Positions 11,290-32,472 of a stretch of DNA of 64,000 bases are shown here, one piece after another; the stretch's first letter is position 1; each line of letters starts with the position of its first letter. Below the pieces are notes generated by a model. It saw nothing but the letters and a program-made list of their open reading frames with translations. It made no database searches and was not told the DNA's origin. The stretch covers positions 195,918-259,917 of the forward strand of contig NZ_AYPQ01000007.1 in the NCBI RefSeq assembly GCF_000633635.1, given 5' to 3'. The stretch is from Enterococcus crotali (lineage in GTDB: Bacteria; Bacillota; Bacilli; Lactobacillales; Enterococcaceae). The position numbers and the translations under genes are program-made.

Positions 11290-11810
11290 TTAATTTAAAT
11301 CAATACTATAAACAAAATGGCGAACGGGCTGTCCAGAATAATTCTTATCAAATTGTTTGACGATCGTCATCTCATTTTTTTCAGCAATTTTTCGAGAAGA
11401 GAGATTTGTATCTCGAATGATCGAACAAATCTTCTCTGCGTTTAATATATTTTTTGCATAAGTAATACATAATTGACTAGCAGAAGTTGCATAGCCATGA
11501 TTCCAATAGCGTTTGTTAACCAGGTAGCCGATTTCTAATAATGATTCATCTTCAACATCAGAATAAACAATACCGCATTGACCGATAAAGTCTTTACTTT
11601 TTGATCAATGATCGCCCATAGACCAAAGCCATTTTCTTGATAACTTTTTAAATTCCAGTTCAACCAATCTCTTACTTTTTCTTCTGTGAAAGCTGATTCA
11701 TAGGCATACATCGTTTCCTCATCCTGCAAAATCAAACATAAATCCCTAAAATCATCGGATGTGAATTCTCTTAAATAGAGCTGTTCATTTTCGATTATTT
11801 TTTTATACAT
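11290..11810 (-). CDS. GNAT-family acetyltransferase (RimJ/RimL-like), frameshifted
   Basis: The frame starting at 11810 (MYKKIIENEQLYLREFTSDD) reads through GFGLWAIIDQK and then loses homology. One base forward in the same strand the protein continues SKDFIGQCGIVYS, then EIGYLVNKRYWNHGYATSA with a GNAT motif A, down to a TAA at 11290-11292. Restoring one A in the A5 run (plus-strand T5 near 11598-11602) gives a 173-residue intact RimJ/RimL-type acetyltransferase that would modify an N-terminal residue or small amine. The missing base is probably a sequence error, because the same kind of lesion recurs in essential genes here. Confidence 0.75.
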
Positions 11811-12180
11811 TGTTAGCCTCCTTTAATTAAATGTAAATTCATAATAGACAAAGGGCCAGATTCCCCTTTGATCATTCTTTCTAATCGTTAGAACTCATCT
11901 TTTTGTATCTTTGATCAATAGAAAAGCTTCTAAGTAAAGGTGCTTTATATAAAGTAATTTCTTTCTTTTCACCTAAAATAGTAAAAATTCATTAATAGTC
12001 CATCATTGATCCTTAGTATCGGATGGATGAAAGGATTGTCTATCGTTTTTTTAAATAGGCTTAACACGTCCGTCCATAATCTTCCCACAATAAAATAGGA
12101 AGAACTTCTATTTATTTTACCACAGTAACGGATTGAAACAGAAAAAAATAGGATGTAACGTCCAAATAGAGAAAGAAAAA

Positions 12181-12246
12181 TAACAGAAACTTGGGATAAT
12201 TGTAACAGAAATCTGGGAGTTTGGAATCGATATTTCTATGTATACT
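12181..12246 (+). promoter_or_regulatory. Direct-repeat element and promoter upstream of the tail locus
   Basis: A 16-base word, TAACAGAAACTTGGGA, at 12181-12196 recurs at 12203-12218 with two differences, exactly 22 bases apart, so both face the same side of the helix. It abuts a weak -35-like TTTGGA and a TATACT -10 at 12241-12246, the only good -10 upstream of the first tail gene. This looks like an activator-dependent promoter with paired binding sites. The rest of the spacer (11811-12305) shows nothing else that I recognise. Confidence 0.45.
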
Positions 12247-12323
12247 AGGTTCATCAAGCAATACCTGCTGTAAACATTCGTTAAAAGAGTCGCCCGTGAC
12301 GTTAAATGAGAGGAGATGTCAAA

Positions 12324-12491
12324 GTGGATTTGAATGATGCTTTTGAGCAGCAAGATAAGGCAATCAAAAAACAATTAAAAGTTATCGAAAAGCTGCAAAA
12401 AAGAGTAAAAGCAGAACAAAGACAAAAAAATCTGCTTGCATCTCAATTAAAGCGATCGCTTCAACAATTAGAAGAGTTAAAACAGCAGTAG
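12324..12491 (+). CDS. Small coiled-coil protein heading the tail locus
   Basis: This 55-residue protein is almost entirely one charged helix with heptad-like spacing (KAIKKQLKVIEKLQKRVK, then QLKRSLQQLEELKQQ), so it probably forms a coiled coil. I start at GTG 12324, which has AGGAGATG at 12311-12318; an in-frame ATG at 12306 lacks a site. It is first in the apparent tail operon, 24 bases before the tail-tube gene. I do not recognise the family. It could be a tail-assembly or regulatory accessory. Confidence 0.55.
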   Translation: MDLNDAFEQQDKAIKKQLKVIEKLQKRVKAEQRQKNLLASQLKRSLQQLEELKQQ

Positions 12492-12515
12492 AAGACCAGA
12501 GGAGGAAATAAACAT

Positions 12516-13025
12516 ATGACAGCATTAAGCGGAGTAGATGTAGTTTGGCGTTTTCGTTTAGCCGAAGACGAAGGAAATGAACGTGCGTGGGGATTAGCCT
12601 ACAGTACAGAAAATGGTTATTCAAAATCGAAAGAAAGTGAATCGACCGTAACGAAAGATGGTAGTGTTGTAACACCAGGAGCAACTGAAACCACAGTAAC
12701 TGCTACAACGTTATACAAAATCGGTTCAACTCAAATCGATAAATTAGAAACAGCGATGGATGAAAATAAACGTGTTCAAATTTGGCGTATTAATACCAAA
12801 GAAATTGGCACGGGTAATGATGAAGGAAAATTCAAAGCTAAATATTTTGAAGGTTATTTTACTTCCTTTGAAGAAACGGATTCAGCTGAAAATAAAGTGG
12901 AATATTCTTTAGAGTGGGCAATCGAAGGCGCTGGTAAGAACGGCTTTGCGGCATTAGAGCTAGATACGTCTGAAGGCGGCGATTATGAATTTAAAGACAC
13001 TGTAAAAGTAGAAAAAACGCCCTAA
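12516..13025 (+). CDS. Phage major tail (tube) protein
   Basis: This 169-residue protein resembles the TP901-1/phi13-type major tail proteins. It has an N-terminal GVDVVWRFRLAED, a hydrophilic beta-rich centre, and IWRINTKEIG with a following YFEGYFTSFEETDSAEN segment typical of tube subunits; the C-terminus is acidic. Such proteins polymerise to form the tube of non-contractile siphophage tails. It has a GAGGAGGAAATAAAC site and is immediately followed by the tail-assembly chaperones and tape measure, the canonical order of a siphophage tail module. Confidence 0.85.
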   Translation: MTALSGVDVVWRFRLAEDEGNERAWGLAYSTENGYSKSKESESTVTKDGSVVTPGATETTVTATTLYKIGSTQIDKLETAMDENKRVQIWRINTKEIGTGNDEGKFKAKYFEGYFTSFEETDSAENKVEYSLEWAIEGAGKNGFAALELDTSEGGDYEFKDTVKVEKTP

Positions 13026-13096
13026 TATTTCAAACACAAGCATATAAATGAAGAGGTTGGTCTAACTAACCTCTTTCAAAATCAGGAGGAATAAAG

Positions 13097-13438
13097 ATGG
13101 AACTAACAATGGATGAAAAAATATTTAGCTGCAAATTTGGCTACGGCTTTTTAAAAGAAATCAACAAACGTTATTCAGTAGAACGTAGTGGAATGCAGTT
13201 GAAGATAGGTGTTGGCGCAATTGTTTCAAATCTTCTTTTATCGGATGTCGACACGCTTTTCGAAGTTCTGTTGATTGCCAATATGACAGAAAAGCCTAGA
13301 ATGACCGTTAAATTTTTAGAAGATTATGTTGAACAAAATGGAACAAAAAATCTGTTTGAAGAAGTGATCGATGAGTTAAAAAAGTCGGAATATACCGGGA
13401 TGATGACCAGCAAGATGTTGGAAGAAGCACAAGTGTAA
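13097..13438 (+). CDS. Tail assembly chaperone (gpG-like)
   Basis: This 113-residue protein has the helical make-up of gpG-type tail chaperones and sits between tail tube and tape measure. An AGGAGGAATAAAG site precedes the ATG. Near its end lies the heptamer A-AAA-AAG (13378-13384) in the zero frame, the classic -1 slippery sequence. The -1 frame stays open from there into the next reading frame. Known siphophages make a gpG and a longer gpGT fusion from such a pair, and both coat the tape measure during tail assembly. Confidence 0.8.
   Translation: MELTMDEKIFSCKFGYGFLKEINKRYSVERSGMQLKIGVGAIVSNLLLSDVDTLFEVLLIANMTEKPRMTVKFLEDYVEQNGTKNLFEEVIDELKKSEYTGMMTSKMLEEAQV
13378..13384 (+). other. Candidate -1 programmed ribosomal frameshift site
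   Basis: The heptamer is phased as X-XXY-YYZ over codons TTA-AAA-AAG of the chaperone gene. A slip here joins residue 96 of the first frame to an open -1 frame that runs to 13779, giving a ~227-residue fusion. The downstream frame has no convincing ribosome binding site of its own. The alternative is a missing base in the A6 run, as elsewhere in the window. Confidence 0.7.
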
Positions 13439-13779
13439 AGAGCATAGATTTTGATGAAGTGTATGAGCAGGTTCGTTTAAACTGTCTACGTTTTTTGAAG
13501 ATCGAAACATTTAATGAAATAGATCGGTTGACGATTCCAGAGTACGAACTTCGAATGAAAGCCTATCAGTTAAAACAATTGGATCGTCAATACGAAATTC
13601 ATATGCAAGCTTGGGCCACTGTTATGGCGGGGCAAACACGAAAAGGGAAACCAATTTTTAGGACCTTTGATAAATTCTTCGATTATCGCAAAGCAGAAGA
13701 GAAACTATTAGGCCGACAAAAAAGCACTTCTCCTGATAAAGAAAAACTTCGAAATTGGATTGCCAATTTCAATTCATAG
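13384..13779 (+). CDS. Tail chaperone T-domain, expressed as gpGT by frameshifting
   Basis: This -1 frame adds ~131 residues to the chaperone (VGIYRDDDQQD, then SIDFDEVYEQVRLNCLRFL and a basic helical part ending WIANFNS). Only a GTG at 13459 could start it independently, and no Shine-Dalgarno precedes that codon. Position and length match the T extension of siphophage gpGT proteins, which recruits tail-tube subunits to the tape-measure-bound chaperone. It ends 15 bases before the tape measure gene. Confidence 0.7.
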   Translation, partial: VGIYRDDDQQDVGRSTSVKSIDFDEVYEQVRLNCLRFLKIETFNEIDRLTIPEYELRMKAYQLKQLDRQYEIHMQAWATVMAGQTRKGKPIFRTFDKFFDYRKAEEKLLGRQKSTSPDKEKLRNWIANFNS

Positions 13780-13794
13780 GAAAGGAGGGAGAAA

Positions 13795-16095
13795 ATGGAA
13801 AATAAAAATAATCTGACGACGGTTTTATCTATTATGGAGAATAATTTTTTCAAAACATTGACTAGTGCTGATGCTGCACTAAATAGCACGAAAGGTACAT
13901 CAGATCGTTTAGCTGAATCTTTTGCAAAATTATCATCCTATACTGTTGCACCACAGAGTTTCGATGTGTTCAAACACAGTGCTAAAGAGGCTTCAAGCAT
14001 GGTGGATATTCTTGGGGAAAAATTAAAACAAAGATTTACTCCAGTTGTTGAAAATCCAAGTTTTACTGGAATGATAGGTGCTGTCGATAAAGCAATCGTT
14101 GATATCAATGATAAGTTAAAACAATTTCATATGCCTAGCTTGGGGAAAATGATGATAGGGGATGAATCGATCTTCGGGAATATCAACGGTAACATAGATA
14201 AAGTAACACAGTCTTTTGGCGGAATGGCTCAAAGTTTTGGGAATAAACAGAAACAAATGATTTCAGGCATATCAAATTGGAAACAAAATCTTATTGGATT
14301 TACAGAAAATACTAAATATCAAATGAAGCTCTTTACTATGGCAATGAGGACAGAAGGCTCTCCAATTGATAAACTTGGGACAGCATTTGATACGGTTTCT
14401 ACAAAAGTCTCTTCAGGTTTTTCAAAAATGTATCAAAGCTCTGGGATGATGGGGTCAGCATTTCGCCAAGTCGGTGAAGGATTCAACGGGGTAAAAACCT
14501 ATATGACTGGTTTACCTGAAAGTGCAAGATATCAAATGAAGCTTTTAGGAATGCATATAAGAAGTGAACATCCGGCTTTGGCTGAATTAGGAACAAAGTT
14601 TTCTGACATGTCTTCCCAAGTAGGTGGAACTATTTCTACAGTTGCTACTAAATTTGGCGCTTTAGGAAGTAAATTTACTGATACGATTACAAATTCAAAG
14701 CTGTTAAAAGCGACTTTCAGTGGGATAGGAACAACCTTACAAGGATCAGCTAATATCGGGACAACGGCTATGACCTCAATGGTTCAAGGATTGTCCTCTG
14801 TTTTTGGATTTGCCTTAAAAGCTTTGGGGCCAGCAGCTATTTTAGGGATTGCATTAGCTGGTTTTGGTTTATTAGATAGTCAGTTCGATGGACAAATCGG
14901 TAAGATGATAGAAACGGCAACCACAAAAGGACCAGCTATTATTGCTGGATTTGTTCAAGGTATCATAGAGAAGCTTCCTGCATTGATGGAAACGGGAACG
15001 CAATTAATTGCAGGATTAGCAGAAGCAATTTCCGTAAATCTACCTGTAATCATGCAAAGTGCGGTTGATCTGATCGGAGCTTTAGTTAATGGGGTAATTG
15101 AAAGTTTACCAACATTGATACCAGCGGCTTTAATGTTGATTGAATCCTTAGCCACAAGCTTATTAGCTGCAGCACCCCAGTTGTTATTAACGGGATTAGA
15201 TTTATTAATTGCTTTAGTTGACGGAATTTTAGCTAATAAGGATCAAATTATTACTACTGTAACAAATATTATTGAAGCGTTCACTACCAATATTACGAAT
15301 AAATTGCCTGAAATTATTAAAAAAGGTGTTGAAGTGTTAACGAAACTTGCAGAAGGTATCGCTTCTGTATTGCCTAAGTTAATTCCAGTAGCTATAGAAG
15401 CAATTGCAACTTTAGTTGGAACACTATTAGAACAGTTACCTACTTTAATTGACGCAGCAATTAAAATTGTCGCGACTTTGTGTAAAGGATTATGGGATAG
15501 TTTACCAGATATTCTATTAGCTGCAGGTAAGTTATTAGCGACATTTGTTGAAGGGATAATTGGGCTTTTACCAGATATTGCTAGTGCAGGATTGAGAATG
15601 GGGAACGAAATAATCAAAGAACTTACAGGAGTAGATTTATTTGAAATTGGTGGGAATATAATACGAGGCTTGGTAGATGGTATCAAAGGCATGGCAAAAT
15701 CTGCATTAGATGCAGTAATGAACATTGGTAAAAGTATTGGAGATGCATTTAAAGGTCTTTTCAAAATCCATTCACCATCTCGCTGGATGCGAGATGAAAT
15801 CGGAGCAATGCTGCCAGCAGGTTTAGCAATCGGTATCGAAAGAAATGCCCATGTCATCGATCAACCAATGGATAAACTAGCTTCTCAAATTATGCTACCG
15901 AGCTTAGACAGCTTAGATCAACATTTAGAAACGGTCAAAGACGTATCAGTTCAATCAAGTAGTAAACAAATGATGATCCAAACCAAACAACCAGCAACCT
16001 TCAACATCAAACTCGGCAATCAACAATTCAAAGCTTTTGTTTCAGATATTTCAGAAGCAATGGGACAAGATTCAGCTATCAATTTAGCCTTTTAG
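13795..16095 (+). CDS. Tail tape measure protein
   Basis: This 766-residue protein follows AGGAAAGGAGGGAGAAA. The N-terminal ~300 residues are helical and polar, with repeats of FTENTKYQMKLFTMAMR / LPESARYQMKLLGMHIR. Residues ~310-370 are a hydrophobic Gly/Ala stretch. About residues 370-640 are a tandem series of ~20-residue hydrophobic helices built on LPxLIxxAxxLI. The C-terminal block has FKIHSPSRWMRDEIGAMLPAGLAIGIE, the conserved HSPS-R end of many Gram-positive tape measures. The protein sets tail length; 766 residues would suggest a tail somewhat over 100 nm by the usual ~0.15 nm-per-residue rule. Confidence 0.88.
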   Translation: MENKNNLTTVLSIMENNFFKTLTSADAALNSTKGTSDRLAESFAKLSSYTVAPQSFDVFKHSAKEASSMVDILGEKLKQRFTPVVENPSFTGMIGAVDKAIVDINDKLKQFHMPSLGKMMIGDESIFGNINGNIDKVTQSFGGMAQSFGNKQKQMISGISNWKQNLIGFTENTKYQMKLFTMAMRTEGSPIDKLGTAFDTVSTKVSSGFSKMYQSSGMMGSAFRQVGEGFNGVKTYMTGLPESARYQMKLLGMHIRSEHPALAELGTKFSDMSSQVGGTISTVATKFGALGSKFTDTITNSKLLKATFSGIGTTLQGSANIGTTAMTSMVQGLSSVFGFALKALGPAAILGIALAGFGLLDSQFDGQIGKMIETATTKGPAIIAGFVQGIIEKLPALMETGTQLIAGLAEAISVNLPVIMQSAVDLIGALVNGVIESLPTLIPAALMLIESLATSLLAAAPQLLLTGLDLLIALVDGILANKDQIITTVTNIIEAFTTNITNKLPEIIKKGVEVLTKLAEGIASVLPKLIPVAIEAIATLVGTLLEQLPTLIDAAIKIVATLCKGLWDSLPDILLAAGKLLATFVEGIIGLLPDIASAGLRMGNEIIKELTGVDLFEIGGNIIRGLVDGIKGMAKSALDAVMNIGKSIGDAFKGLFKIHSPSRWMRDEIGAMLPAGLAIGIERNAHVIDQPMDKLASQIMLPSLDSLDQHLETVKDVSVQSSSKQMMIQTKQPATFNIKLGNQQFKAFVSDISEAMGQDSAINLAF

Positions 16096-16108
16096 AAGGA
16101 GGGAAAAA

Positions 16109-16876
16109 ATGTATTATTTTGAAGATACAACCAAAAAAGTCCACAAAGATGATTTGATCCTTCCTTCGTCAGCTATGATGTATGACGGCCTTTATCTTGA
16201 AAAAATGATCTCAGGCTACCGCACACTAGCTGTAACTGGTAGGGAAATGTTATCTCTCAATATAGAAACGCAAGAAACACAAGTCGGCAGTATCAAACTA
16301 AATCAAAAGCTACCTGCTCGAACGATCAAGGTGAGTTATCAACTAATTGGAAAAGATGCAAAAGATGTGCAAAAAAAATACCATCAGTTGATGGGTTTGC
16401 TTTATAAAGAATCTGATGTTGAAATTCGATTCAAAGACGAACTTGATTATCATTATTATGGGCAGTATGTGGCAACAGATGAGGTGCGTGGGGATACCAA
16501 CAGCATTATTGCAAGTTTTGAAATTCTTTGTGCGGACCCCAAAAAATATTCTGTATTATTAAAAACAGATGGCGCAATTACTACCTATTTGCCATATCCA
16601 ACGACTCCTGAAAAGATTGAAGTCAATATTGCAAAATTTGGCTCATTAATGATTTCAAATGGTGATAAAACGATTAGAATCACCAGCTACAATTTAAGTG
16701 CAGGTGATCAAGTCGCTTTTGATTTCTTAAAAGGAAAAGTTTTTGTAAATAAGTTGGATCAAACGTTTCTACTTGATTTAGAAAGTGATTTTGAAAATTT
16801 TACGATTCAAGAAGGTCAAACTATTGGTTGTAGCAATGGACAAATGATCATTTCATATCGGGAGGTACAGCTATGA
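16109..16876 (+). CDS. Distal tail protein (Dit)
   Basis: This 255-residue protein has the Dit/Sipho_tail signature. The N-terminal belt domain contains LYLEKMISGYRTLAVTGREMLS, followed by the YYGQYVATDEVRGDTNSIIASFEILCADP strand block, and a C-terminal galectin-like beta domain. Dit forms the hexameric ring that joins tail tube to the Tal spike and the baseplate. The ATG follows AGGAGGGAAAAA. Its stop overlaps the start of the Tal gene by four bases (ATGA). Confidence 0.87.
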   Translation: MYYFEDTTKKVHKDDLILPSSAMMYDGLYLEKMISGYRTLAVTGREMLSLNIETQETQVGSIKLNQKLPARTIKVSYQLIGKDAKDVQKKYHQLMGLLYKESDVEIRFKDELDYHYYGQYVATDEVRGDTNSIIASFEILCADPKKYSVLLKTDGAITTYLPYPTTPEKIEVNIAKFGSLMISNGDKTIRITSYNLSAGDQVAFDFLKGKVFVNKLDQTFLLDLESDFENFTIQEGQTIGCSNGQMIISYREVQL

Positions 16877-19644
16877 GCAAAAGTGTTTATTTCTTTGATG
16901 AGCGTCAGCACTTACTTCGGATCGTGAAAGAAAACGAGCTGATAGAAGTTATTCAGGAAAAAGAAATTACTTCAAATAAAGAAGAATTGATGAATGATAC
17001 ACTAAATGTCTCCACTGTTTACGATGAAGAATTAAAACAAGCGGCATACATGGCTGTAAAAGAAGAAGCTTCTTATTATAGCTTATACAGAATTATTTTA
17101 GACACTGAATCTGAGAATATTTTATCGTTTGTAGGAATCAGCTTCGCACCGGATGAACTTGATTCTTATGTAGTAAAAAATGTTGAAGTTAAAAACGATT
17201 CGATCAAAAATACAATACAAAAATTGTTAACAGAAACAGAGTGGCGTCTAGGAGAAATCGATACAAACTTACCAGTCATCACAGAAGATTTTAGTTTTTT
17301 CTCTGTGCGTGATGCACTAAAAAATATTCAAACAAAAGGCTGTGAGATTTTATTTAAATATAAAATAGATGGTATCGGTATCACAGATAAATGGCTAGAA
17401 GTCTATCGTGAAATTGGCGAGCAAAGCAACCAACGTTTTACGTATGGTGATAAAGCATTAAGCATCATAAAAGAGCAAGATCGCAATCAAGTGTATACAA
17501 GTCTGATCGGACGCGGACGTGGTGAAGATGTCGGTGACGGAAAAGGCAAACGTATCGAGTTCACAAATATAGAGTGGAAAAAAGCAAACGGTAAACCTTT
17601 AAATAAACCAAAGGGACAAAATTGGCTAGAATTTCCTGAAATGACAACACAATACGGTATTCCACTTAAAAATGGCGGCATGAGAAGACGAGAAAAAGTC
17701 ATTACGTTTGATGAAGAAGAAAGTCCAGAAAAATTACTACAAAAAACATACGATTCACTCATCGAATATTCTCGACCACTTGTTCAATTTAAAACAGAAA
17801 TCTTAGGTGGAGATGCAATTGGTAATACCGTGACGATCCATCGTCATGACCGAAACTATCACTATCAAACACGAATTTTTAAAGTGAAAATCGATCGTTT
17901 GACAGGAAAAGTCGAAGCTGGTTTAGGAGATAATATTTCAAAAAGCATCTCAAAAGCTACTTCGGAGTTAAAAGGCAATGTCGATACCTTAGAAGAGAAA
18001 AAGATGACGTTTTATGATTCTGAAGAAATTTCAAAGTGGCAAGATGACATTATACGTGGAGCAAAAGGCGGCTCGATAAAACTGATGAATGGAATCGAAA
18101 CGGGAAAATCAAATAGTCGTGAGCCGTATCAACAAGTTTTTATGGATGGAAATTCGCTAGAAAATAGTAAACGTTTTTTAGTAATGAACTCTGATGGAAT
18201 TGGTTTTATCAAAGATAATTTTGCAAACAAGCCTAAAACAGCTTGGACGATTGATGGTCAGTTTAATGCCGATTACATCAATACAGGTACATTAAGAGCA
18301 ATTGATATAAAAGGGGTCAATATCTATGGTTCTAAATTTGAATCAGATAGTGGCGGATTTAAAGTTCATATTATTGATGGCAAAATTCGGTTTCTCAATT
18401 CAGACACTGGAAAAGAAATCGGGGCTATTGCTCCAGCATTTGTAGACGGAGCATTAAAAGGATATACAATTATTCAAAAATCAGGTTATTCAATCAATAT
18501 AGCGACTCAATCAACAGATGCAAAAGTTCATGCGAATGTTATCAGTATTCCACCTGACAGCACAGCAGACAATCCCAAATTAGAGATTCATGGAAAAGTT
18601 GCTTTAAAGGGTGAGTTAAATATAAATGGCAAGCTATTTCTTAATGGCAAAGAAATAACCGGTAACGGCAGTGGAGGATCTGGTGGCATCGGTGGAGGAA
18701 TACCACCAGAGTTGACAACCGATCAAGAAAAAAACGCTTGGGGTATCTGGCAATTCTTTAAAAATAAAGGGTGGACTGAACAATCGATCGCTGGAATGTT
18801 GGGGAATATCCAATCAGAATCGGGGATCATGCCTGATATCGACGAACTAAGTGGAGGCGGTGGTTATGGACTAACTCAATGGACACCTAAATCCAAGCTA
18901 GTTAATTGGTGTAATGAAAATGGTTTGGATCATCGAACGCTGGATTCCCAATGCCAACGAATACAATGGGAAATGGAAAATAATCAGCAATGGTTTCCAA
19001 ACTATGAAAGACCAGATTTATCAAACATCTCTTTTAGAGATTTCACTAAGCTTTCGGATGTCAAATTGTCAGCAGAATATTTTATTGCATTTTATGAGCA
19101 TCCTAAATATCCTAATCAACCAATAAGAGCACAACAAGCTCAATATTGGTATGACAAGTTAAGAAATTTGAAACCAGGAGCTTCAACTGGAGCTGCAGGG
19201 CTAGCTCATTTAGACACCTTATATAAACAGCCTTTAGGCAATGGACAATGTTATGCCGTGCCAGCAGAGTATTCTGGATTTTTAGGTGGTTGCGGTTTAG
19301 GCGCAAGTACTGGCTATCCGTTAAGCCATAACATAGGAGACACTGAGGCTGCGGCAGAAATCGGTAGCGCTTATGATTGGGCAGCTGTTGGATGGAAAGT
19401 AATATATAATCCGTCATACGAACAATTAGTACCGGGTGCAATCATCAACTGGAAACGCGGTGGAAATATCGGTGGTTTTAACGTTGACTATACCTATGGT
19501 CATACAGGCGTTATTCGAGGATTAACCCATGGTGGTTTCCAAACCTATGAACAAAATATCGGATTAGGGCAAGTTGTCGGTAAATATGAACGTCAATGGA
19601 TTGGATCAAGCGAAATCAGCTCAATCGTGATTCCACCCAAATAA
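16873..19644 (+). CDS. Tail-associated lysin (Tal) with lysozyme-like and CHAP domains
   Basis: This 923-residue tail-tip protein has three parts. Residues ~1-380 are the Tal/gp27-like hub (endopeptidase tail family), with a conserved RVTG-like junction (LIGRGRGEDVGDGKG). Residues ~380-600 are a beta-rich shaft ending in a Gly-rich hinge. The C-terminus carries two peptidoglycan hydrolases: a phage tail lysozyme domain (~610-760; EKNAWGIWQFFKNKGWTEQ, GNIQSESG with the catalytic Glu, YGLTQWTP) and a CHAP amidase/endopeptidase (~775-923; NGQCYAVPAEY with the Cys and YGHTGVIRG with the His). They would open the wall for the tail tube. ATGA overlap with Dit shows coupling. Confidence 0.88.
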   Translation: MSKSVYFFDERQHLLRIVKENELIEVIQEKEITSNKEELMNDTLNVSTVYDEELKQAAYMAVKEEASYYSLYRIILDTESENILSFVGISFAPDELDSYVVKNVEVKNDSIKNTIQKLLTETEWRLGEIDTNLPVITEDFSFFSVRDALKNIQTKGCEILFKYKIDGIGITDKWLEVYREIGEQSNQRFTYGDKALSIIKEQDRNQVYTSLIGRGRGEDVGDGKGKRIEFTNIEWKKANGKPLNKPKGQNWLEFPEMTTQYGIPLKNGGMRRREKVITFDEEESPEKLLQKTYDSLIEYSRPLVQFKTEILGGDAIGNTVTIHRHDRNYHYQTRIFKVKIDRLTGKVEAGLGDNISKSISKATSELKGNVDTLEEKKMTFYDSEEISKWQDDIIRGAKGGSIKLMNGIETGKSNSREPYQQVFMDGNSLENSKRFLVMNSDGIGFIKDNFANKPKTAWTIDGQFNADYINTGTLRAIDIKGVNIYGSKFESDSGGFKVHIIDGKIRFLNSDTGKEIGAIAPAFVDGALKGYTIIQKSGYSINIATQSTDAKVHANVISIPPDSTADNPKLEIHGKVALKGELNINGKLFLNGKEITGNGSGGSGGIGGGIPPELTTDQEKNAWGIWQFFKNKGWTEQSIAGMLGNIQSESGIMPDIDELSGGGGYGLTQWTPKSKLVNWCNENGLDHRTLDSQCQRIQWEMENNQQWFPNYERPDLSNISFRDFTKLSDVKLSAEYFIAFYEHPKYPNQPIRAQQAQYWYDKLRNLKPGASTGAAGLAHLDTLYKQPLGNGQCYAVPAEYSGFLGGCGLGASTGYPLSHNIGDTEAAAEIGSAYDWAAVGWKVIYNPSYEQLVPGAIINWKRGGNIGGFNVDYTYGHTGVIRGLTHGGFQTYEQNIGLGQVVGKYERQWIGSSEISSIVIPPK

Positions 19645-19669
19645 TCAATTTTTAGAAAGGAGTGAGTAA

Positions 19670-20544
19670 ATGTCAATCGTATATCCAATTTTCTTATCAA
19701 TCACACAACCAAACGATAATATTCCAACAATCATGATTCGTCAATTTGACGAAGGAACACAAGTACTGGATGTGACCGTAACAGAACATGGAAAACCAAA
19801 AGACATTTCAAATTTAACCCCTTTTTCTGCGTCAAACAAGGACATCATGCTGGACTCGGTTTATCTGAGCAAAAAGTCGTTAAAATCATCGACGCAAAAA
19901 AAGGAAAGTTACAATATACATTAACCAATTATGATATGCAAAATATCGGAGAAAATACAGCGTACTTCAGCTTTAAAGAACTTCAAAAAGATTTAAGTTG
20001 GCGACAACAATTTTCGACGAGAGATTTTGTTTATCAAGTCAAAGAAAGTATTTACGACGAGGGAATCAGAGACCGTAACTATATTTGGACATTTGAAGAA
20101 ATCTTGCGCTATTTCACTGAATGGGTGAAAACCTGCCAGGAGATTTATGATGACTGGTATTTAGTAGCACAAGAAGAGTTACAGCGGATTATTGTTGAAT
20201 TCAAAGGCTGGATTACAACAAGTCAGCAACGTTATGACAAATGGACAGAAGTTCAAAGAGCAGAATTTGATAAATGGTTTACTACAATTAAAGGGATTTT
20301 AGATGAAAATGTTGCTGGTAATCTTCTGAACGTAATCGAAGAATTAAAATTAGCACATTTCACCTTGAAAAGTGGTGAAACTGGCATCCTTAGAACCATT
20401 CGAGATGATAAATTCAGTTTGAATCATAAGGTAACTAAAGTAGGAACAGTCTTGCATAAAAAAGAAGCTTCCGCTCTAGTTGTAGCAGAAATTGACAGTG
20501 AAATGCAAAATACCTTCTTTATAAGAAAGGTGAGATCAGTATAA
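19670..20544 (+). CDS. BppU-like baseplate upper protein, frameshifted
   Basis: The frame starting at 19670 gives MSIVYPIFLSITQPNDNIP and a BppU N-terminal beta domain that binds Dit, but goes out of frame after DISNLTP. The -1 frame continues FFCVKQGHHAGLGLSEQKV, KGKLQYTLTNYDMQN and GENTAYFSFKEL, then a long helical linker (WVKTCQEIYDDWYLVAQEEL) to 20544. Adding one T to the T5 run near 19822-19826 restores a 291-residue BppU. I regard it as one gene, probably broken by a sequence error. It would connect the baseplate core to the receptor-binding proteins downstream. Confidence 0.78.
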
Positions 20545-20774
20545 TGGCGCATGAAGTAGACATCAAAAAAGTTATGGAAACAGACAAAGCCGGCGTACAA
20601 CGCCAAGTCTTTCCAGAAACACATGTCAGTGCAATCCTTGGTTTAGAGAATATCGCAGCAGCAGGCACTGGCGTGAGATCAATCAATGGAAAAACCGGAG
20701 ATATCACATTAACAGCCAAAGATTTAGGTATCCAAGGAACAAATATAACAATAGATAAGGTGGGAACAGTATGA
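20544..20774 (+). CDS. Short tail-fibre/receptor-binding-like protein 1
   Basis: This 76-residue protein starts inside the end of the BppU frame with AAAGGTGAG upstream. Its N-terminal part (RQVFPETHVSAILGL) matches the YPKTHxxAxxxL motif of the next two proteins. The rest contains NGKTGDITLTAKDLGI, a short repeat common in phage tail fibres and stem structures. It ends in IDKVGTV, and the bases coding for that end also form the next gene's ribosome binding site. Function is inferred from position; it may be an adaptor for fibre trimers. Confidence 0.55.
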   Translation: MAHEVDIKKVMETDKAGVQRQVFPETHVSAILGLENIAAAGTGVRSINGKTGDITLTAKDLGIQGTNITIDKVGTV

Positions 20775-21100
20775 CAGATATCGTTGAATTAAAAAGTGAT
20801 GGAGCTGTTGTTTATCCTAAAACACATGTAAATGCTGTAGAAGGATTAACAACAATCAAAGGTGAAAAAGGAGAAACAGGACCAGCAGGACCACAAGGTG
20901 CAACGGGAGCTGCAGGTGCGGTTGGTCCACAAGGTTTAAAAGGGGCAACTGGGGCTACAGGACCACAGGGACCAGCCGGAACAAATGCTACAACGACAGC
21001 TGTAGCAACACAAACTGTCAATGGATTGATGAGTGCCGTTGATAAGAAAAAATTAGATACATTACCAACAATAACTTTTAGTAAGGTGGGAGCAGTATAA
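20771..21100 (+). CDS. Collagen-like short tail-fibre protein 2
   Basis: This 109-residue protein has the shared N-terminal module (MTDIVELKSDGAVVYPKTHVNAVEGL). A collagen-like run of about 13 Gly-X-Y triplets follows (KGEKGETGPAGPQGATGAAG and on). The C-terminal segment (TQTVNGLMSAVDKKKLDTLP) is frequent in phage fibres. Gly-X-Y stretches form trimeric stalks in phage and surface proteins. It overlaps the preceding gene by four bases (ATGA) and ends SKVGAV, whose coding bases again carry the downstream ribosome binding site. Confidence 0.65.
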   Translation: MTDIVELKSDGAVVYPKTHVNAVEGLTTIKGEKGETGPAGPQGATGAAGAVGPQGLKGATGATGPQGPAGTNATTTAVATQTVNGLMSAVDKKKLDTLPTITFSKVGAV

Positions 21101-21618
21101 TGGCAGATATCGTACAATTAGAAGAAAAAGGGAACTTGCTTTATCCGAAGACACATACAAGCGCTATTGATAATTTTGATGAGACAGTTGTGAAGAAAAC
21201 TGGTAATGAAGAAATTGCCGGGGTCAAGAATTTTAAAGGTGATTTGCAATTAAATGGGAAATCAGTTGAAACTAAACTGGACTCAGGAATTTTGTGGACT
21301 GGTACTTGGATTTTAAATGAACTTCAAACAATAACACCTAAAAAGAAATTATCTGATTGTAAGACAGGCTGGATATTGGTTTTTCAAGAATATGATAAAG
21401 GAGCAACGAATAGTTCTGCCTTTCACTATTTTCATGTTCCAAAATGTCATGTGATTAAACATAACAATAGAGGGTTAGTTTTTCAGATATCTAATTATAA
21501 TGGAGCTACCATGGGTGTGAAGTATCTTTATATTAGTGATACTCAAATTAAAGGACATTCTTTGAATGGACAGGCACCTAATAATATTCAAGCTATAACA
21601 GAGATTTATGAATATTAG
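21100..21618 (+). CDS. Putative receptor-binding tip protein 3
   Basis: This 172-residue protein has the same N-terminal module (MADIVQLEEKGNLLYPKTHT) and a short GNEEIAGVKNFKGDLQLNGK segment typical of tail fibre shafts. Its ~110-residue C-terminal domain (ILWTGTWILNELQTITPKKKL, then FHYFHVPKCHVIKHNNRG) is beta-rich and the most distinctive part, so it is the likely host-recognition tip. Phage receptor-binding tips of this size are typical, but the exact family is not recognised. It is the last gene of the locus and is followed by a terminator. Confidence 0.6.
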   Translation: MADIVQLEEKGNLLYPKTHTSAIDNFDETVVKKTGNEEIAGVKNFKGDLQLNGKSVETKLDSGILWTGTWILNELQTITPKKKLSDCKTGWILVFQEYDKGATNSSAFHYFHVPKCHVIKHNNRGLVFQISNYNGATMGVKYLYISDTQIKGHSLNGQAPNNIQAITEIYEY

Positions 21619-21696
21619 AAAAAATGATATAAAACTATAAGTAGCTAATTTAATATCTTTAATGATTGATAAGTTAAACAAACCTATAAATGAAGT

Positions 21697-21727
21697 GAGA
21701 GGTGCTCTATTTGGAGTGCCTCTTTTT
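21697..21727 (+). terminator. Terminator closing the tail locus
   Basis: The 9-bp stem GAGGTGCTC / GAGTGCCTC (21699-21707 and 21714-21722) has two G-U pairs and is followed by five T. Confidence 0.85.
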
Positions 21728-21782
21728 ATAAATTAACGCCAGAAAAATATGTTTGATAGGACTTTATCCGAGAAATTCTTAC

Positions 21783-21847: not shown

Positions 21848-22312
21848 ATGGACAGAAAAATCGGTCTAAAAATCAGAATTTTAGCCAATGAACTAAATCG
21901 AAAAGCGGCAGAAATTTTAAAAGAAGATGATGGTGAAGCTTCTTCGAGCATCCAAATGCGTATTCTAAATTTTATTCATCGCCGCAATAGCCAACAGGTA
22001 CCCGTTTATCAAAAAGACATCGAGCAAGAATTTGATATTCGTCGATCTACTGCGACAGGGGTTCTGCAAACGATGGAGAAACGCTTATTTATCGAAAGAA
22101 AATGTTGCGAAAAAGACAATCGTTACAAAACGATTATTTTAACTGAACTAGGACAACAGAAAGTTAAAGAAAATATTGTGAAGCTACATAAATTCGATGA
22201 ATTATTAGTTCAAGGAATTTCAGAAAATGATCTAACGATTTTCTTTAAGTTAATGGAAAAACTATCAGAAAACAGCAAAAAAATAAATAAGGAAGGTGAA
22301 CGGATTACATGA
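21848..22312 (+). CDS. MarR-family transcriptional regulator
   Basis: This 154-residue winged-helix protein has a recognition region in YQKDIEQEFDIRRSTATGVLQ and a wing near KDNRYKTIILTELG, flanked by the dimerisation helices typical of MarR. AGCAAGGAGGTAAATC precedes the ATG. Its stop overlaps the start of the ABC exporter gene (ATGATA region), so regulator and exporter form one operon. The palindrome at its promoter suggests autorepression. The inducer is probably a compound exported by the transporter, but the sequence does not say which one. Confidence 0.9.
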   Translation: MDRKIGLKIRILANELNRKAAEILKEDDGEASSSIQMRILNFIHRRNSQQVPVYQKDIEQEFDIRRSTATGVLQTMEKRLFIERKCCEKDNRYKTIILTELGQQKVKENIVKLHKFDELLVQGISENDLTIFFKLMEKLSENSKKINKEGERIT

Positions 22313-24044
22313 TAAAAAAACTGATTGCCAATATAGGCGTCTATAAAAAAGAAAGTATCATTGCACCGATTTACGTAACAGGCGAAGTGATTTTAGATAT
22401 CATTATTCCACTAGTCATGGCGATGATGATCGATAATGGGATCGAAAAAGGAAATACCAAAGCGATTTTAATGTATGGCGCGATTTTATTTGTTTGTGCA
22501 ATTATTGCGTTATTTTTTGGTGCGATGTCAGGTCGCTATGCGGCAGTTGCTTCAGCTGGCTTTGCAAAAAATTTACGAGATCAATTATTTGTTCGAATCC
22601 AAGGATTTTCATTCTCAAATATCGATCGTTTTTCTACCTCAAGCTTGATTACACGAATGACAACGGATGTGACCAATGTTCAAAATGCGTACCAAATGAT
22701 TATTCGATTGTTAGTTCGTAGTCCCTTGATCATGATTTTTTCATTAGCGATGGCTTATAGTATCAACAAGGACCTATCATTGATTTATTTAGGTGTTGTA
22801 CCATTTTTAATGATCGGTTTAGCGCTAGTTATTTATTTTGCTCATCCTAATTTCAATAAAGTTTTCCGTATTTATGATAAATTAAATAACGTTGTTCAAG
22901 AAAACTTGCAGGGGATTCGAGTCGTGAAATCTTATGTAAGAGAAAAACATGAAGATGAGAAATTCAAAACCGTTTCTAAAGATATTTACAAAACATTCTC
23001 AAAAGCTCAAAGTATTGTTGCTTTTAATAATCCTATTTTACAGTTTGCAGTCTATACCTGTATGTTATTGATTTCTTGGTTAGGAGCAAATTTGTAGTAG
23101 GGAGCACCTTAACTACTGGAGAATTAGTCAGCATGTTTACGTATACAATGCAGATTTTAATGAGCTTAAATATGTTATCTATGGTTTTTGTTATTGTATT
23201 GATTGCACGGACTTCAGCCGAGCGGATCACAGAAGTATTAGCTGAGGAAAGTGATTTGAAAAATAACGCTAATCCTATTTATGAAGTGGCAGATGGATCT
23301 GTTCGTTTTAATGACGTGAGTTTCAGTTATGCTAATGATCTCGAAAAATTAGCATTGATGCATGCAAATCTTGAAATCAAATCAGGTGAAGTGATTGGGA
23401 TCGTGGGTGGAACAGGTAGTTCTAAATCAACCTTAGTACAGTTGATTCCAAGGTTATACGATGTGACACAAGGATCAGTAGAAGTTGGTGGACGTGACGT
23501 GCGGGAGTACGATTTAAAATCATTGCGTGATCAAGTCAGTATGGTTTTACAAAATAATGTCCTATTTACAGGAACGATCAAAGAAAATCTGCGCTGGGGT
23601 AATGAACATGCCACTGATGAGGACTTGATCAGAGTTTGTAAAATCGCACAGGCTGATAGTTTTATCCAAGAGTTTCCTGATAAGTATGACACTGTTATTT
23701 CTCAGGGGGGAAATAATGTTTCTGGTGGTCAAAAACAACGTTTGTGTATTGCACGAGCGCTGCTGAAAAAACCGAAGATTCTTATTTTAGATGACTCAAC
23801 GAGTGCGGTGGACACGAAAACGGATCGTCTGATCAGAGAAGGAATGAGACAAGAAATTCCTGGAACAACGACGTTTATCATTGGACAGCGTGTGTCTTCT
23901 ATTGAAGATTCTGATCGTATTATTGTTATGGATAAGGGTTTGATCAATGCGATTGGCACTCATGATGAACTATTAGCTAGTAATCAGATTTATCAAGAAG
24001 TTTATGAGTCTCAAAAGAAAGGATTTGGTGAAGAGGATGCGTGA
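22309..24044 (+). CDS. Heterodimeric ABC exporter, subunit 1 (frameshifted)
   Basis: This is a fused ABC exporter half (about 578 residues). Six transmembrane helices are in the first ~300 residues; the nucleotide-binding domain has Walker A GGTGSSKST, signature VSGGQKQR and Walker B LILDDSTSAVD. The Asp after Walker B replaces the catalytic Glu, so this half supplies the degenerate ATP site. The frame breaks after ISWLGA near 23085 and resumes as KFVVGSTLTTGEL one frame back. One A restored in GCAAATTT repairs it. This is probably a sequence error. It is homologous to enterococcal MarR-linked multidrug exporters such as EfrEF, but identity to that system is unproved. Confidence 0.85.
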
Positions 24045-25924
24045 TGAACAAACAAAAGGGATTCGCAAAAGTCAAGATCCTTTGAAAACATTGAAGCGAC
24101 TGTTTTCATATATGTTTAAAAAATACAAATTTCTACTTGTACTAGTAATGATCCTCATTTTATTAAGTACCTTTGCCAATGTTCGGGGCTCTTTATTTCT
24201 GCAAGTGGTGATCGATGATTATATCACGCCATTACTGGGACAAAGTAATCCTAACTTTTCGGGATTATTAAAAGCAATCACAACGATGGCGTTGATTTAT
24301 GGTGTCGGGATCATTTCGAATTTAGGATTTAACCTAATCATGGTGCGAATCAGTGAAGGAACACAGAAAACAATTCGGGATGAAATGTTTACTCATCTTG
24401 AAACGTTGCCGATTCGTTATTTTGATTCCAATTCAGATGGAGATATCATGAGTCATTTTACGAACGATACAGATACCTTGCGTCAGATGATTTCTCAAAG
24501 TATTCCTAATCTGGTGGCGGCTGTGGTCAGCTTTGTGAGTGTGTTTATTGCAATGTTTACCATAAGTGTACCACTGACATTGGTCGTAATCGTTTCTGTT
24601 TCAATAATGATCGTTACGATTCGAATGATCGCAGGACGCAGTAGTCGTTATTTTGGTAAGCAGCAACGAGATTTAGGGAGAGTCAATGGTTTTATTGAAG
24701 AGATGATGCATGGGCAAAAAGTGGTGAAAATTTTTAATCATGAGCCGCAAACAATCGAAGAATTCACGACAATCAATGAAGAGCTACGTCAAAGTGCTAC
24801 TCAAGCCAATAAATATGCCAATAGCTTGATGCCGATCATGATGAATTTGTTAAACATCCAATATGTGCTTTTAGCCGTAGTTGGCGGAATCTTTTCAGTG
24901 TATGGTGTTTCTGGTTTAACGATCGGGATGATTGCTTCCTTTCTACAGCTAAGTCGCTCGCTGAACATGCCGATCAGTCAAGTTTCTCAACAAATCAATT
25001 TCGTGATCATGGCTTTAGCTGGAGCGGATCGGATTTTTACGTTGATCGATGAAAAGTCTGAAGTCGATGATGGCTATGTAACCCTAGTTAATGTAAATCG
25101 AGAAGCAAATGGACTTGTTGAAAGTGAAGCAAGAACAGGACTTTGGGCCTGGAAGCACCCTCACAATGACGGAACTGTTACGTATACAGAATTGACTGGA
25201 GATGTGCGTTTTGAAGATGTGTCTTTTGGCTATACAGATAACAATCGGGTGTTAAAAGATATTAATTTATATGCTGAACCAGGTCAAAAGGTTGCCTTTG
25301 TTGGCGCGACTGGAGCAGGAAAAACAACAATTACTAACTTGATCAATCGTTTCTATGATATTCAAGAAGGAAAAATCCGTTATGATGGAATTAATGTGAA
25401 GAAAATCAAGAAAAGTTCCTTGAGAAGATCATTAGGGATCGTGCTGCAGGATACCCATTTATTTACAGGAACGATCCGTGAAAATATTCGTTATGGAAAA
25501 TTGGATGCATCAGATGACGATGTCATCAAGCAGCTCAATTAGCCAATGCAGAAGACTTTATCAAAAACTTACCAGAAAAATATGATACTGTCATCACAGG
25601 TGACGGTGAAGGCTTATCACAAGGTCAACGTCAATTGTTGTCGATCGCTCGGGCGGCTATCGCTGATCCACCTGTAATGATTTTGGATGAAGCGACCTCT
25701 AGTATAGATACGAGAACAGAAAAACATGTGCAAGCAGGAATGGATCGTTTGATGAAAGGTAGAACGGTATTTGTTATCGCTCATCGATTGTCGACAATTC
25801 AAAACTCAGATGCGATTATGGTTATGGATCATGGGCGTATTATTGAACGAGGCAGCATGAAGATTTACTTGAAGAAAAGGGAATCTATCATCAGTTGTAT
25901 ACAGGGAAAGTAGAACTTTCGTAG
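24037..25924 (+). CDS. Heterodimeric ABC exporter, subunit 2 (two frameshifts)
   Basis: This partner half-transporter (~629 residues when repaired) has six transmembrane helices. Its ATPase domain has Walker A GATGAGKTT, an altered signature LSQGQRQ and canonical Walker B MILDEATSSID with the catalytic Glu. With subunit 1 it gives one active and one degenerate ATP site. A ~45-residue insertion (VNREANGLVESEARTGLWAW) precedes the ATPase domain. The frame is broken at ~25530 (ATCAAGCAG lacks one A; repaired product reads IKAAQLANAEDF) and at ~25857 (GGCAGCATG lacks one C; repaired reads RGSHEDLLEEKG), ending at 25924. I start at ATG 24037, overlapping subunit 1 by eight bases. Confidence 0.83.
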
Positions 25925-31841: not shown

Positions 31842-32009
31842 ATGAAAACATATAAACTAATATGTCAATCACATAAGGGGGAGTTTGGCAAACTGATGCT
31901 TGAGCAGCCATCTAGAAAAGCGGCTATCAAGTGGGCTATGGAATGCAAAGCGGTTAAGAAGGTTGTTAAGGTACAGGAGGGGGAACGGATTGAGAACATC
32001 AATATTTAA
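31842..32009 (+). CDS. Small phage/ICE-type hypothetical protein
   Basis: This 55-residue basic protein (MKTYKLICQSHKGEFGKL, ending GERIENINI) follows ACAGGAGGTCGACG. It overlaps the next gene by 20 bases in another frame, an arrangement frequent in phage regulatory modules. I do not recognise the family. Such short genes commonly precede the late-gene regulator in enterococcal prophages. Confidence 0.6.
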   Translation: MKTYKLICQSHKGEFGKLMLEQPSRKAAIKWAMECKAVKKVVKVQEGERIENINI

Positions 32010-32408
32010 CTATATCAAAGATATCTTAGCGGATTACTACAAAACAGGTGAGTATATCAAGCAGCGTGAGGACGAGCTGCGTTATCCGCACCGTGAGTCT
32101 GATCCCAATGGAGATATCAAAGGGAGCAAGGCGAGTTATGACAATCAGGTTAACTTGACGATTACGATCGAGCAAGACAAGAGGTTGACTAACTTAGGGC
32201 GCAATAAGTGTGTTATTTCAAAATTACTGAGCGAGACAGGCGAAGAGACGGCAACGATTATCGAAGAATTTTATTTAAAGAAGCGTCCACAATTTACATT
32301 ACGAGGTTGATTGAAAATGAGTTGATTTTCTGTAGTAGACGGACGGCAAGTAATTTACGTACTAAGTTTTTTGAGGAAATGGCAAGGGAGCTAAATTTAG
32401 AAATCTGA
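31990..32408 (+). CDS. Phage late transcriptional regulator (ArpU/RinA-like), frameshifted
   Basis: The frame from TTG 31990 (AGGAGGGG at 31976-31983) gives MRTSIFNYIKDILADYYKTG and EYIKQREDELRYPHRES, then the helix-turn-helix-like ISKLLSETGEETATIIEEFY, with the composition of ArpU/RinA-type phage regulators. It stops after PQFTLRG. The -1 frame continues TRLIENELIFCSRRTASNLR and ends ELNLEI at 32408. Adding one A in ACATTACG (near 32301) yields a ~139-residue protein ending in a full helical C-terminal half. It may once have activated late phage genes, which are no longer present. Confidence 0.6.
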
Positions 32409-32472
32409 TTTGCCCAAAAATTGCCTCCCGACTGTATGTGATGATGATATATTGATATTATGAAATACTAAG

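Follow-up and report, generated by a model that had tools for sequence, protein, structure and literature searches.

Background

The F-type tailocins described so far are few, the F-pyocin, the monocin and rhizoviticin being those named in PMC10811719. In Listeria the monocin (ftb) takes the form of a headless siphophage-type tail, which every genome examined contained as a single region (PMC7076858); it is described as one cluster of 18 genes in which structural and lysis genes lie together, with release by a holin and a lysin (PMC7076858, PMC6872733), and its metalloprotease is reported to act on the repressors of two elements (PMC6872733). Rhizoviticin of Allorhizobium, as presented in PMC10811719, is an F-type tailocin whose locus also contains its regulators and lysis genes. 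In Enterococcus faecalis V583, the 14.6-kb core-genome element pp2 (EF1276–EF1293) is credited with repressor, tail and lysis functions; in the same account it lacks integrase, excisionase, portal, head and packaging genes, and no excision was seen (PMC3675006). For late regulators, four direct repeats before the late promoters are described in PMC13123087, the part of that paper which deals with them making no mention of ArpU. No enterococcal tailocin was present among the literature matches listed.

The locus described here lies in the window, a 64,000-nucleotide stretch of the Enterococcus crotali genome. It probably specifies a headless F-type tail that serves as a weapon against related bacteria, and this tail would form a split system together with an unlinked locus of repressor, ImmA-like, ArpU and holin genes. 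Compared by description, it shares with the monocin a headless siphophage-type tail in Bacillota and the pairing of a CI-like repressor with a metalloprotease, whereas the monocin has the protease in the bacteriocin locus and its lysis genes clustered, and here the tail stands alone with the switch genes and holin unlinked. It was filed as F-type tailocin-like rather than as a monocin because no lysis gene was recognised in the tail locus. With the F-pyocin, known here by name only, it shares the F-type class; rhizoviticin differs in its Gram-negative host and in the regulators and lysis genes of its tail locus. The element pp2, likened by description only, differs in that its functions are linked; it is also marked with a replication function and has been described as a remnant. 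The activators of TP901-1-type phages and phi13 (Alt, Ltr) are likewise small late activators, but they adjoin the late operon that they control, whereas the activator proposed here would act on a second target at a distance.

The tail operon

Profile HMM scans covered ten ORFs of the operon, leaving out the N-terminal piece of the BppU gene (19670–19924) and a 76 amino acid ORF (20544–20774), and defined a headless siphophage-type tail operon at nucleotides 12165–21727 of the window, with all of its features on the forward strand. The set for a non-contractile tail is present (tube, chaperones, tape measure, Dit, Tal and receptor proteins) and a sheath is absent; none of the genes of the locus was recognised as one for head, portal, packaging, terminase, integrase, holin or lysin.

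The first ORF (12306–12491; 61 residues as listed, start uncertain) specifies a small protein which, by eye, we take to be a coiled coil. Its weak match (E 4e-4) is to phrog_2932, a family labelled head scaffolding, which its counterpart g3 matches at E 2.5e-9; the gene is present in 16/16 relatives, with only 38 residues in L025. In three of seven annotated phage or plasmid records its position is taken by a tail terminator or U-like protein, and in the other four by capsid/scaffold, capsid, gp10 and hypothetical proteins. It is followed by the major tail (tube) protein (12516–13025; TIGR02126, 65 bits; PF06199, Phage_tail_2; phrog_238), tail assembly chaperone 1 (13097–13438; PF12363, TAC_12) and chaperone 2 (13459–13779; phrog_441), the latter being shorter from the start codon in L024. 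The 766 amino acid tape measure protein (13795–16095; phrog_1204, phrog_5493), a type of protein whose length is the ruler of tail length, falls into five length classes over 17 species, with all frames open. Next are the distal tail protein Dit (16109–16876; PF05709, PF22768, TIGR01633) and the tail-tip protein Tal (16873–19644; TIGR01665; PF06605, Prophage_tail), which possesses tail lysozyme (PF18013, Phage_lysozyme2) and CHAP (PF05257; 27.5 bits against a cut-off of 26) domains. The operon ends with a frame-broken BppU-like baseplate protein (19670–20544; PF10651, BppU_N, from the C-terminal piece), a small accessory protein (20544–20774) that is 76 residues long in 17/17 species, an accessory protein with a collagen-like repeat (20771–21100; PF01391, phrog_6907), and a BppL-like receptor-binding protein with a conserved N-terminal anchor and a swapped C-terminal module (21100–21618; PF18338, BppL_N; phrog_7389).

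BLAST comparison of the ORFs placed the tail locus in 17 of 22 genomes of the genus, which we take to be GTDB Enterococcus in the strict sense, with one genome per species and the same site and gene order throughout; for L029–L030 it covered the tail genes, and the flanking regulator was checked separately. Among the ORFs listed for the relatives no additional gene was conspicuous and the order was compact. The window's flanking host genes are, by eye, presumably RpiR, GNAT, MarR and ABC genes; the other names of host neighbours, GH4 and citrate-cycle genes, are likewise presumptive. In G008 the site is empty, with 143 bases between the neighbour genes.

Promoter, leader and hairpins

The presumed activator-binding region (12165–12222) consists of repeats phased at 11 bp (AGAAA..., ...TTGGGA, ...AACAGAAATCTGGG, AGTTT), which align in one register in 17/17 species with AGTTT invariant. 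The 17-species alignment was anchored on TATACT, the −10 element, at 12241–12246, 18 nt after AGTTT. The promoter has no consensus −35 and is absent from the 33 sigma-70-like sites of a consensus scan. The repeats show 22-bp spacing, and control by a LytTR regulator was therefore considered; it was rejected, the genome having five LytTR matches, one of them a short fragment, and the layout of a late activator fitting better.

A conserved 5′ leader (AGTCGCCCGNGAC..AAATGAGAGGAG; 12288–12315) was searched for as a 26-base pattern with at most two mismatches. Among 105 genomes of the family it occurs once in each of the 17 that carry the tail and in no other, and a control pattern gave no match. 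Its assignment to a known RNA was rejected, there being no Rfam match and no stable fold. Two hairpins each fold better than all shuffles. That after the tube gene (13051–13076; −14.6 kcal/mol for 13045–13085, z −5.1) is matched in most of the 17 species by a comparable inverted repeat, recognised by eye, and may act as a partial terminator or stabilise the mRNA and so favour tube protein over the other products. The other is the closing intrinsic terminator (21698–21727; −17.9 kcal/mol for 21690–21735, z −6.2), which was not listed by the consensus scan.

The gene content agrees with the first-pass annotation, which had described a capsid-less siphophage tail operon with tube, chaperones, tape measure, Dit, Tal and BppU, and with no portal, capsid, terminase, integrase, holin or lysin in the locus. 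Of the three receptor-binding-like proteins which it had listed one is BppL-like and two are small companions, and of its promoter and terminator the latter stood; the repeats before the promoter begin about 16 bases upstream of its 12181.

A second locus with putative regulatory and lysis genes

The regulatory and lysis genes missing from the tail locus appear to exist at an unlinked locus with a similar promoter. In the window genome (G000:C3, L109) this second locus contains an HTH CI-like repressor, an ImmA-like M78 protease, an ArpU-family activator (TIGR01637; 103.2 bits against a curated cut-off of 43.1) and a holin (89 bits). This locus had been overlooked in the first-pass annotation. 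It occupies one site in 17 genomes, namely 16 of the 17 tail carriers and one of the five non-carriers (Fisher p 0.003, phylogeny ignored), although the co-occurrence is weak once phylogeny is considered, as the four species with neither locus may belong to one lineage. G013 has an intact tail with neither an ArpU hit nor the second locus, and G008 has the second locus and no tail. The window genome has only one ArpU-family match.

An Amidase_5 endolysin lies directly after the holin in G007 and G012 and about 2.7 kb downstream of it in G017; in the other 14 genomes no member of this family, the only one searched for, was next to the holin. Amidase_5 is present in 22/22 genomes of the genus. 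In the window genome it lies within another phage-like locus and was rejected as the endolysin of this species, no link having emerged.

Two observations concern the RinA family. A related RinA-family fragment is present inside the window itself, and in G033 and G028, too, a repressor gene occurs with ImmA, RinA-like and holin genes, no tail being present.

Repeats phased at 11 bp are common to the holin and tail promoters, and their register is the same in both. All 17 tail promoters match the core AGTTT-N18-TAWACT exactly, against only 8/17 holin promoters, which have AGTTT in 11/17, TAAACT in 12/17 and both in 8/17; the window genome's own holin promoter is without the exact core (CAATCT; rank 20 of 39,898). 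A PWM of the holin promoters (−46..+6), anchored at a fixed 49-base distance, put the tail promoter in the top 3 of 35,898–127,898 positions in 16/17 loci and first in nine; the window tail site was first of 127,898, and second of 127,944 without the −10. With a narrower PWM (−40..+6), in which three holin promoters were misanchored, the window tail promoter fell outside the top 3. The tail PWM ranked the holin promoter first in 3/17 and in the top 10 in 11/17, at worst 102nd; this is the comparison for which there was a reversed-PWM control. Leaving out the −10 gave ranks of 1–24 and 1–180 in the two comparisons. Over shifts of −15..+15 the mean scores of both PWMs were positive at shift 0 alone, −11 being a side peak, and the best match per locus to a tail repeat PWM (−76..−18) was in register in 10/17, 11 bases out in 5/17 and elsewhere in 2/17.

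Further members of the regulon were sought in the window genome with AGTTT-N18-TAWACT, which gave nine sites against 30 (12 forward, 18 reverse) for the reversed control, the tail promoter alone being convincing by eye. The full tail-repeat search with at most three mismatches found only the tail promoter, so that the genome's own holin promoter was not recovered either.

We judge the chances somewhat better than even that one ArpU-type activator, acting in trans on duplicated operators, coordinates fixed and separate loci for the tail and for switch and lysis. Alternatively, the F-type tailocin could be driven by another regulator, the ArpU-holin locus being an independent phage-derived lysis unit and the promoters being alike because both descend from the same type of phage late promoter. 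The occurrence of the tail without the ArpU locus in G013 and the reverse in G008, the exact core in only 8/17 holin promoters, and the tail-less gene sets of G033 and G028 all agree with this, as does the lack of significant covariation between tail operator and ArpU beyond phylogeny (partial 0.23; 91 of 1000 permutations as high). It is nonetheless unlikely, given that repeats and register agree between the promoters, that both promoters are maintained in many species, and that the window genome has a single ArpU-family match, even if a RinA-family fragment exists.

Relatives of the tube protein

No phage tube protein more than 48% identical to that of the window was found among deposited phages, prophages of the genus and the IMG/VR matches listed; the closest deposited phage protein is 46% identical and, among the matches listed, the closest prophage proteins of the genus 48%. 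Of 131 IMG/VR matches the best 80 were kept, seven contigs being read and three more entering the tree. Nine of the 80 were at least 68% identical, on contigs of 8.8–13.4 kb, and the five of these that were read are all tail-only, one with switch genes; the next matches of the 80 were at 48%, on a partial match, and 44%. Two contigs read at 43% and 33% identity carry a capsid. In the tube tree a 100/100 branch separates the proteins of the genus (7 of the 17 used) and those of two genomes from a second genus of the family (G027/G035) from 13 other rows.

In G027/G035 repressor, ImmA and RinA-like genes, tail and holin occupy one locus (L138/L140), in which no capsid gene was recognised by HMM, mainly on G027. 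The tube is 67–69% identical, the coiled-coil gene is in the same place and the order is equal up to Dit; unlike in Enterococcus, the switch genes and holin are linked to the tail, and Tal and the receptor protein are different. The split form is possibly derived from a linked form of this kind. The window genome has one tape-measure match; in some members of the genus there are other phage loci whose tails are related (L039, L040).

The last gene of the operon stands apart from the rest. Its median dN/dS is 0.84, its pairwise identities do not track those of the flanking host gene (Spearman 0.26 over 16 genomes), and the median pairwise identity of the BppL-like protein is 0.60 in the N-terminal and 0.13 in the C-terminal half, from which the latter half is judged to be swapped between species. 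Such diversification of the receptor tip is what antagonism would be expected to produce. It tells against a tail which joins the capsids of other prophages, or which has a non-killing role such as attachment or the release of cell contents. The tape measure, Dit and Tal look like those of ordinary siphophages and related tails do occur in L039 and L040, as such a donor or helper would have it, yet no capsid-linked member of this tube clade was found among deposited phages, the best IMG/VR matches and the tree, and the coiled-coil gene takes the position that 3/7 annotated records assign to a tail terminator or U-like protein; we regard this role as decidedly improbable. The headless tail is very probably a bacterium-killing particle.

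Conservation and selection

In 10 of the 11 genes median dN/dS is 0.03–0.34, the tube protein standing at 0.032. Over 16 genomes the pairwise identities of tube, Dit and BppU track those of the flanking host gene (Spearman 0.76–0.78), those of chaperone 1, the 76 amino acid protein and Tal doing so at 0.64, 0.60 and 0.58. The BppU frame break (19670–19924/19936–20544), which had been flagged as one likely sequence error, was confirmed and is unbroken in 16/16 relatives. Three neighbour genes in the window that are not of phage origin contain at least four more frame breaks between them, and assembly indels may be the cause. IMG/VR contig L153, near-identical to the window, has the identical BppU break and is probably the same assembly.

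The tail locus is not a relic, because it lies at the same site in 17 of 22 genomes and is under purifying selection except in its last gene. That a decaying prophage was kept by chance, as the unrecognised integrase, lysis and head genes, the broken BppU frame and the shortened genes of L025 and L024 might suggest, is very hard to reconcile with 17 carrier species, low dN/dS, a conserved promoter, five tape-measure length classes that are all open and a BppU intact in every relative. The first-pass annotation had raised such a remnant and had pointed to a same-site search across Enterococcus and to dN/dS as ways to judge it; both now favour its F-type tailocin candidate, which is supported as the best reading of the tail locus. 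Pseudogenised copies in most strains, which it had named as contrary evidence, were not found, the genes being open and selected in 17 species, represented by one genome each. Its other contrary case, capsid and terminase genes elsewhere, was approached indirectly, with one tape-measure match in the window genome and, among the matches listed, no phage tube protein above 48% identity.

Proposed mechanism and significance

The gene content, conservation, selection, shared promoter design and conserved second locus read from the DNA lead us to infer a course of events comprising protease action on the repressor, ArpU binding, assembly, lysis and killing. A stress signal would cause the ImmA-like protease to inactivate the CI-like repressor, whereupon ArpU would be made and would bind the 11-bp-phased repeats at two like promoters, that of the holin and, far away, that of the tail operon. 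The tape measure would fix the length of the tails during assembly, and the cell would be opened by the holin together with the endolysin where present, or else with another hydrolase. The released tail would bind its target through the exchangeable BppL-like tip, the wall hydrolases of Tal helping to make the hole. On the reading of coordination in trans, which we narrowly favour, the split system would be a phage late regulon that has turned into a dispersed bacterial regulon across the genus.

If this is true, the tailocin found in most species of the genus would give the enterococci a narrow-range antibacterial of a new kind, and E. faecalis pp2, which we take to be the same element as 'phage02', would merit a new look, since it is a core-genome element that has been classed as a remnant. 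A lack of nearby lysis genes is by itself not evidence of decay, and the split layout would illustrate a way for a phage module to turn into dispersed host regulation.

Tail operon of the window

The compact tail operon lies at window 12165–21727 (the window being G000:C7:195918–259917 in a genome of 3.90 Mb and 20 contigs). A small predicted coiled-coil gene (12306–12491), related to phrog_2932 (labelled head scaffolding), is followed by genes for the tube protein, two chaperones, a 766 amino acid tape measure, Dit, Tal (923 amino acids, carrying a tail-lysozyme and a CHAP domain) and BppU, whose reading frame is broken in the window. A pair of small accessory genes and one for a protein resembling BppL complete the operon. 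Strong hairpins occur 3' of the tube gene and at the operon end. No head, packaging, integrase or lysis genes were recognised in this operon. The position of the coiled-coil gene (window 12306–12491; L138:10461–10847 in a related locus) is annotated as that of the tail terminator in some phage records, and its product could cap headless tubes.

At least four frame breaks were seen in a GNAT-like gene (11293–11810) and two ABC transporter genes (22309–24044, 24004–25913), names assigned by eye. Among the loci listed, every relative with the ABC genes has them in open frame, and most have an open GNAT gene (it is also split in L026), which suggests indel errors in the window assembly. A prophage remnant at 31900–35050, directly downstream of rpmA (by eye), contains a RinA-family fragment (79 bits to TIGR01636), an integrase-like C-terminal fragment (33991–34188, by eye) and a Peptidase_M23 fragment (34535–34852).

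Distribution and inheritance

The tape measure had matches at E ≤1e-3 in 20 of the 22 genus genomes, its own included; those in G002, G008 and G016 were weaker and of prophage type. The operon proper is present in 17 of the 22, among them E. caccae, E. quebecensis, E. ureilyticus, E. ureasiticus, E. termitis, E. plantarum, E. rivorum and the strains DIV0212c and 5H (nine of the 17 carriers), and occupies a single chromosomal site, the same RpiR-like regulator lying within ~6 kb in all 17 and a MarR gene nearby in 11 of 16 compared loci. The same site is empty in G008, with the neighbours 143 bases apart. The search of 105 family genomes gave six matches outside the genus at E ≤1e-60, four much longer and prophage-like by length and two short (654 amino acids; G027 and G035).

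Median pairwise dN/dS (pairs with dS 0.05–1.5) was 0.032 for the tube, 0.067 and 0.060 for the chaperones, 0.091 for Dit, 0.141 for Tal, 0.067 for BppU, 0.098 and 0.116 for the accessory genes, 0.343 for the coiled coil, 0.837 for the receptor gene and 0.288 for the tape measure, some long examples of which were entered from a later start codon (tape-measure lengths come from a separate open-frame search). The flanking RpiR and MarR genes gave 0.028 and 0.055. Median pairwise identity of the receptor protein was 0.60 over its first 59 residues versus 0.13 over the remainder, and C-terminal modules are common to different species: the modules of the window and G004 are 92% identical, their Dit proteins 86%. 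Across 16 genomes, pairwise identity tracked the flanking regulator for the tube, Dit and BppU genes (Spearman 0.76–0.78), more weakly for TAC1 (0.64), the 76 amino acid gene (0.60) and Tal (0.58), and hardly for the receptor gene (0.26). The simplest reading of these comparisons is that the operon has been inherited vertically while its specificity module was exchanged, with some exchange in Tal.

A 100/100 branch of the tube tree separates the tubes of the Enterococcus genus (seven of the 17), two of the second genus and that of one viral contig from 13 rows of phages, prophages, plasmids or viral contigs. The nearest deposited phage tube is 46% identical, and the prophage tubes of G008 and G014 48%. 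Among the best 80 of 131 IMG/VR matches, nine contigs of 8.8–13.4 kb carry a tube of at least 68% identity; below them, one reaches 48% over half of the protein and others 44%. Five of the nine were examined (L153, L154, L156, L158, L161): all have tail genes only, apart from L161, which has the switch and holin with them, and L154 shows host flanks.

An unlinked switch and holin locus

The single ArpU-family activator match of the window genome is at G000:C3:224214–224609, on a different contig from the tail (C7). A divergent HTH repressor and an ImmA-like M78 protease accompany it, and a holin follows ArpU (HMM scans covered the window genome and, additionally, the holins of G012 and G017). 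Second locus and tail share a contig in G006, G007, G009 and G014, hundreds of kilobases apart. ArpU matches exceed the curated cut-off in 21 of the 22 genus genomes, at one common chromosomal site in 17. With ImmA at 80% identity or more as the criterion, the second locus is present in 16 of the 17 tail carriers and in G008. It is missing from G013, together with the adjacent baeRF gene, and from G002, G005, G015 and G016; the above-cut-off ArpU matches of these last four do not belong to this locus according to the ImmA search (surroundings were read in G005). The tail/second-locus pairing is broken in G013 and G008. An Amidase_5 endolysin gene lies directly 3' of the holin in G007 and G012 and ~2.7 kb downstream in G017; none adjoins the holin in 14 of the 17 second loci. 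Median dN/dS was 0.034 for the holin, 0.050 for ImmA, 0.075 for the repressor and 0.097 for ArpU.

Promoters

All 17 species share one layout at the head of the tail operon: 11-bp-phased repeats, then an invariant AGTTT, separated by 18 nt from TATACT, which served as the alignment anchor. The promoter was not among the sites of a sigma-70 scan of the window. The leader AGTCGCCCGNGAC..AAATGAGAGG occurs once per genome, at up to two mismatches, in exactly the 17 tail carriers of the 105 family genomes. At window 12288–12315 the leader AGTCGCCCGNGAC..AAATGAGAGGAG is nearly invariant across the 17 species.

A box lies 49 bases downstream of the ArpU stop codon (the anchor) in all 17 second loci, as TAAACT in 12 and TAGACT or TAAAAT in five; AGTTT stands 18 nt upstream in 11, and both elements are exact in eight. 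A holin-promoter PWM (-46 to +6) ranked the tail promoter first in 9/17 tail loci, among them the window (first of 127,898), and in the top three in 16/17; the exception is L033, at rank 18. The tail PWM performed more weakly on second loci (first in 3/17, top ten in 11/17), and its reversed control placed none in the top ten. Without the -10, ranks were 1–24 for the holin PWM on tail loci and 1–180 in the reverse search, with mean scores at shift 0 of +8.4 and +2.8; all other shifts from -15 to +15 were negative, with side peaks at -11 in both directions and +11 in one. The best match of the tail repeat PWM alone was in register in ten of 17 loci, 11 bases out in five and elsewhere in two. 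The holin promoter of the window genome itself fits the design weakly, ranking 20th of 39,898. Because the loci on each side are homologous, the 17 comparisons per side are not 17 independent events. An operator–activator covariation test was not significant.

Related loci

In G027 and G035, of the second genus, the repressor and ImmA (BLAST identity 40% and 47%) lie on one strand, divergent from a RinA-family gene above cut-off (69 and 57 bits), after which come a second phrog_36 match, the coiled-coil gene and the genes for tube, chaperones, tape measure, Dit and Tal, then those for a receptor-type protein and a holin and, as the third of its kind, another match to phrog_36. The tube is 67–69% identical to that of the Enterococcus operon, and no capsid, portal or terminase genes were recognised, most scans being of G027 only. 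In G033 and G028 (L142, L143), of a second genus, the tail is absent while the switch is kept along with RinA-like and holin-type genes (the holin by eye in G028), as in G008 in Enterococcus; G033 additionally has an Amidase_5 lysin.

Elsewhere in the window genome, another conserved locus resembling a phage tail was noted at G000:C2 ~597900–619600 (L271:7921–19614, L272:474–9646). It encodes an ImmA homolog (split in the window genome), an Amidase_5+SH3 lysin, a phrog_263 holin, an 859 amino acid hub with Amidase_5 and tail lysozyme, a 1470 amino acid tape-measure-like protein and a 440 amino acid structural protein (phrog_14985); no sheath was identified in it. Related loci occur in G007, G008 and G015, and hub frames of the same type (857–871 amino acids), found also in genomes without the F-type tail, in G001, G002, G003, G005 and G016. 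It may be another tailocin or an injection system.

Proposed mechanism

Under stress, the ImmA-like protease would act against the repressor, a step taken from the monocin, the Listeria F-type tailocin (PMC6872733). Relief of the repressor would let ArpU activate the tail and holin promoters, and the tails and holin so made would lead to release and receptor-dependent killing. This chain is likely; the sequences show its parts and the shared promoter design, while all the biochemical steps are inferred. Among the best matches in the open-licence literature, neither a split tailocin layout nor an enterococcal tailocin was found. The E. faecalis V583 prophage element pp2 (PMC3675006) may be a linked counterpart. 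The tail locus of the window is best read as an F-type tailocin of a new lineage with a split layout.
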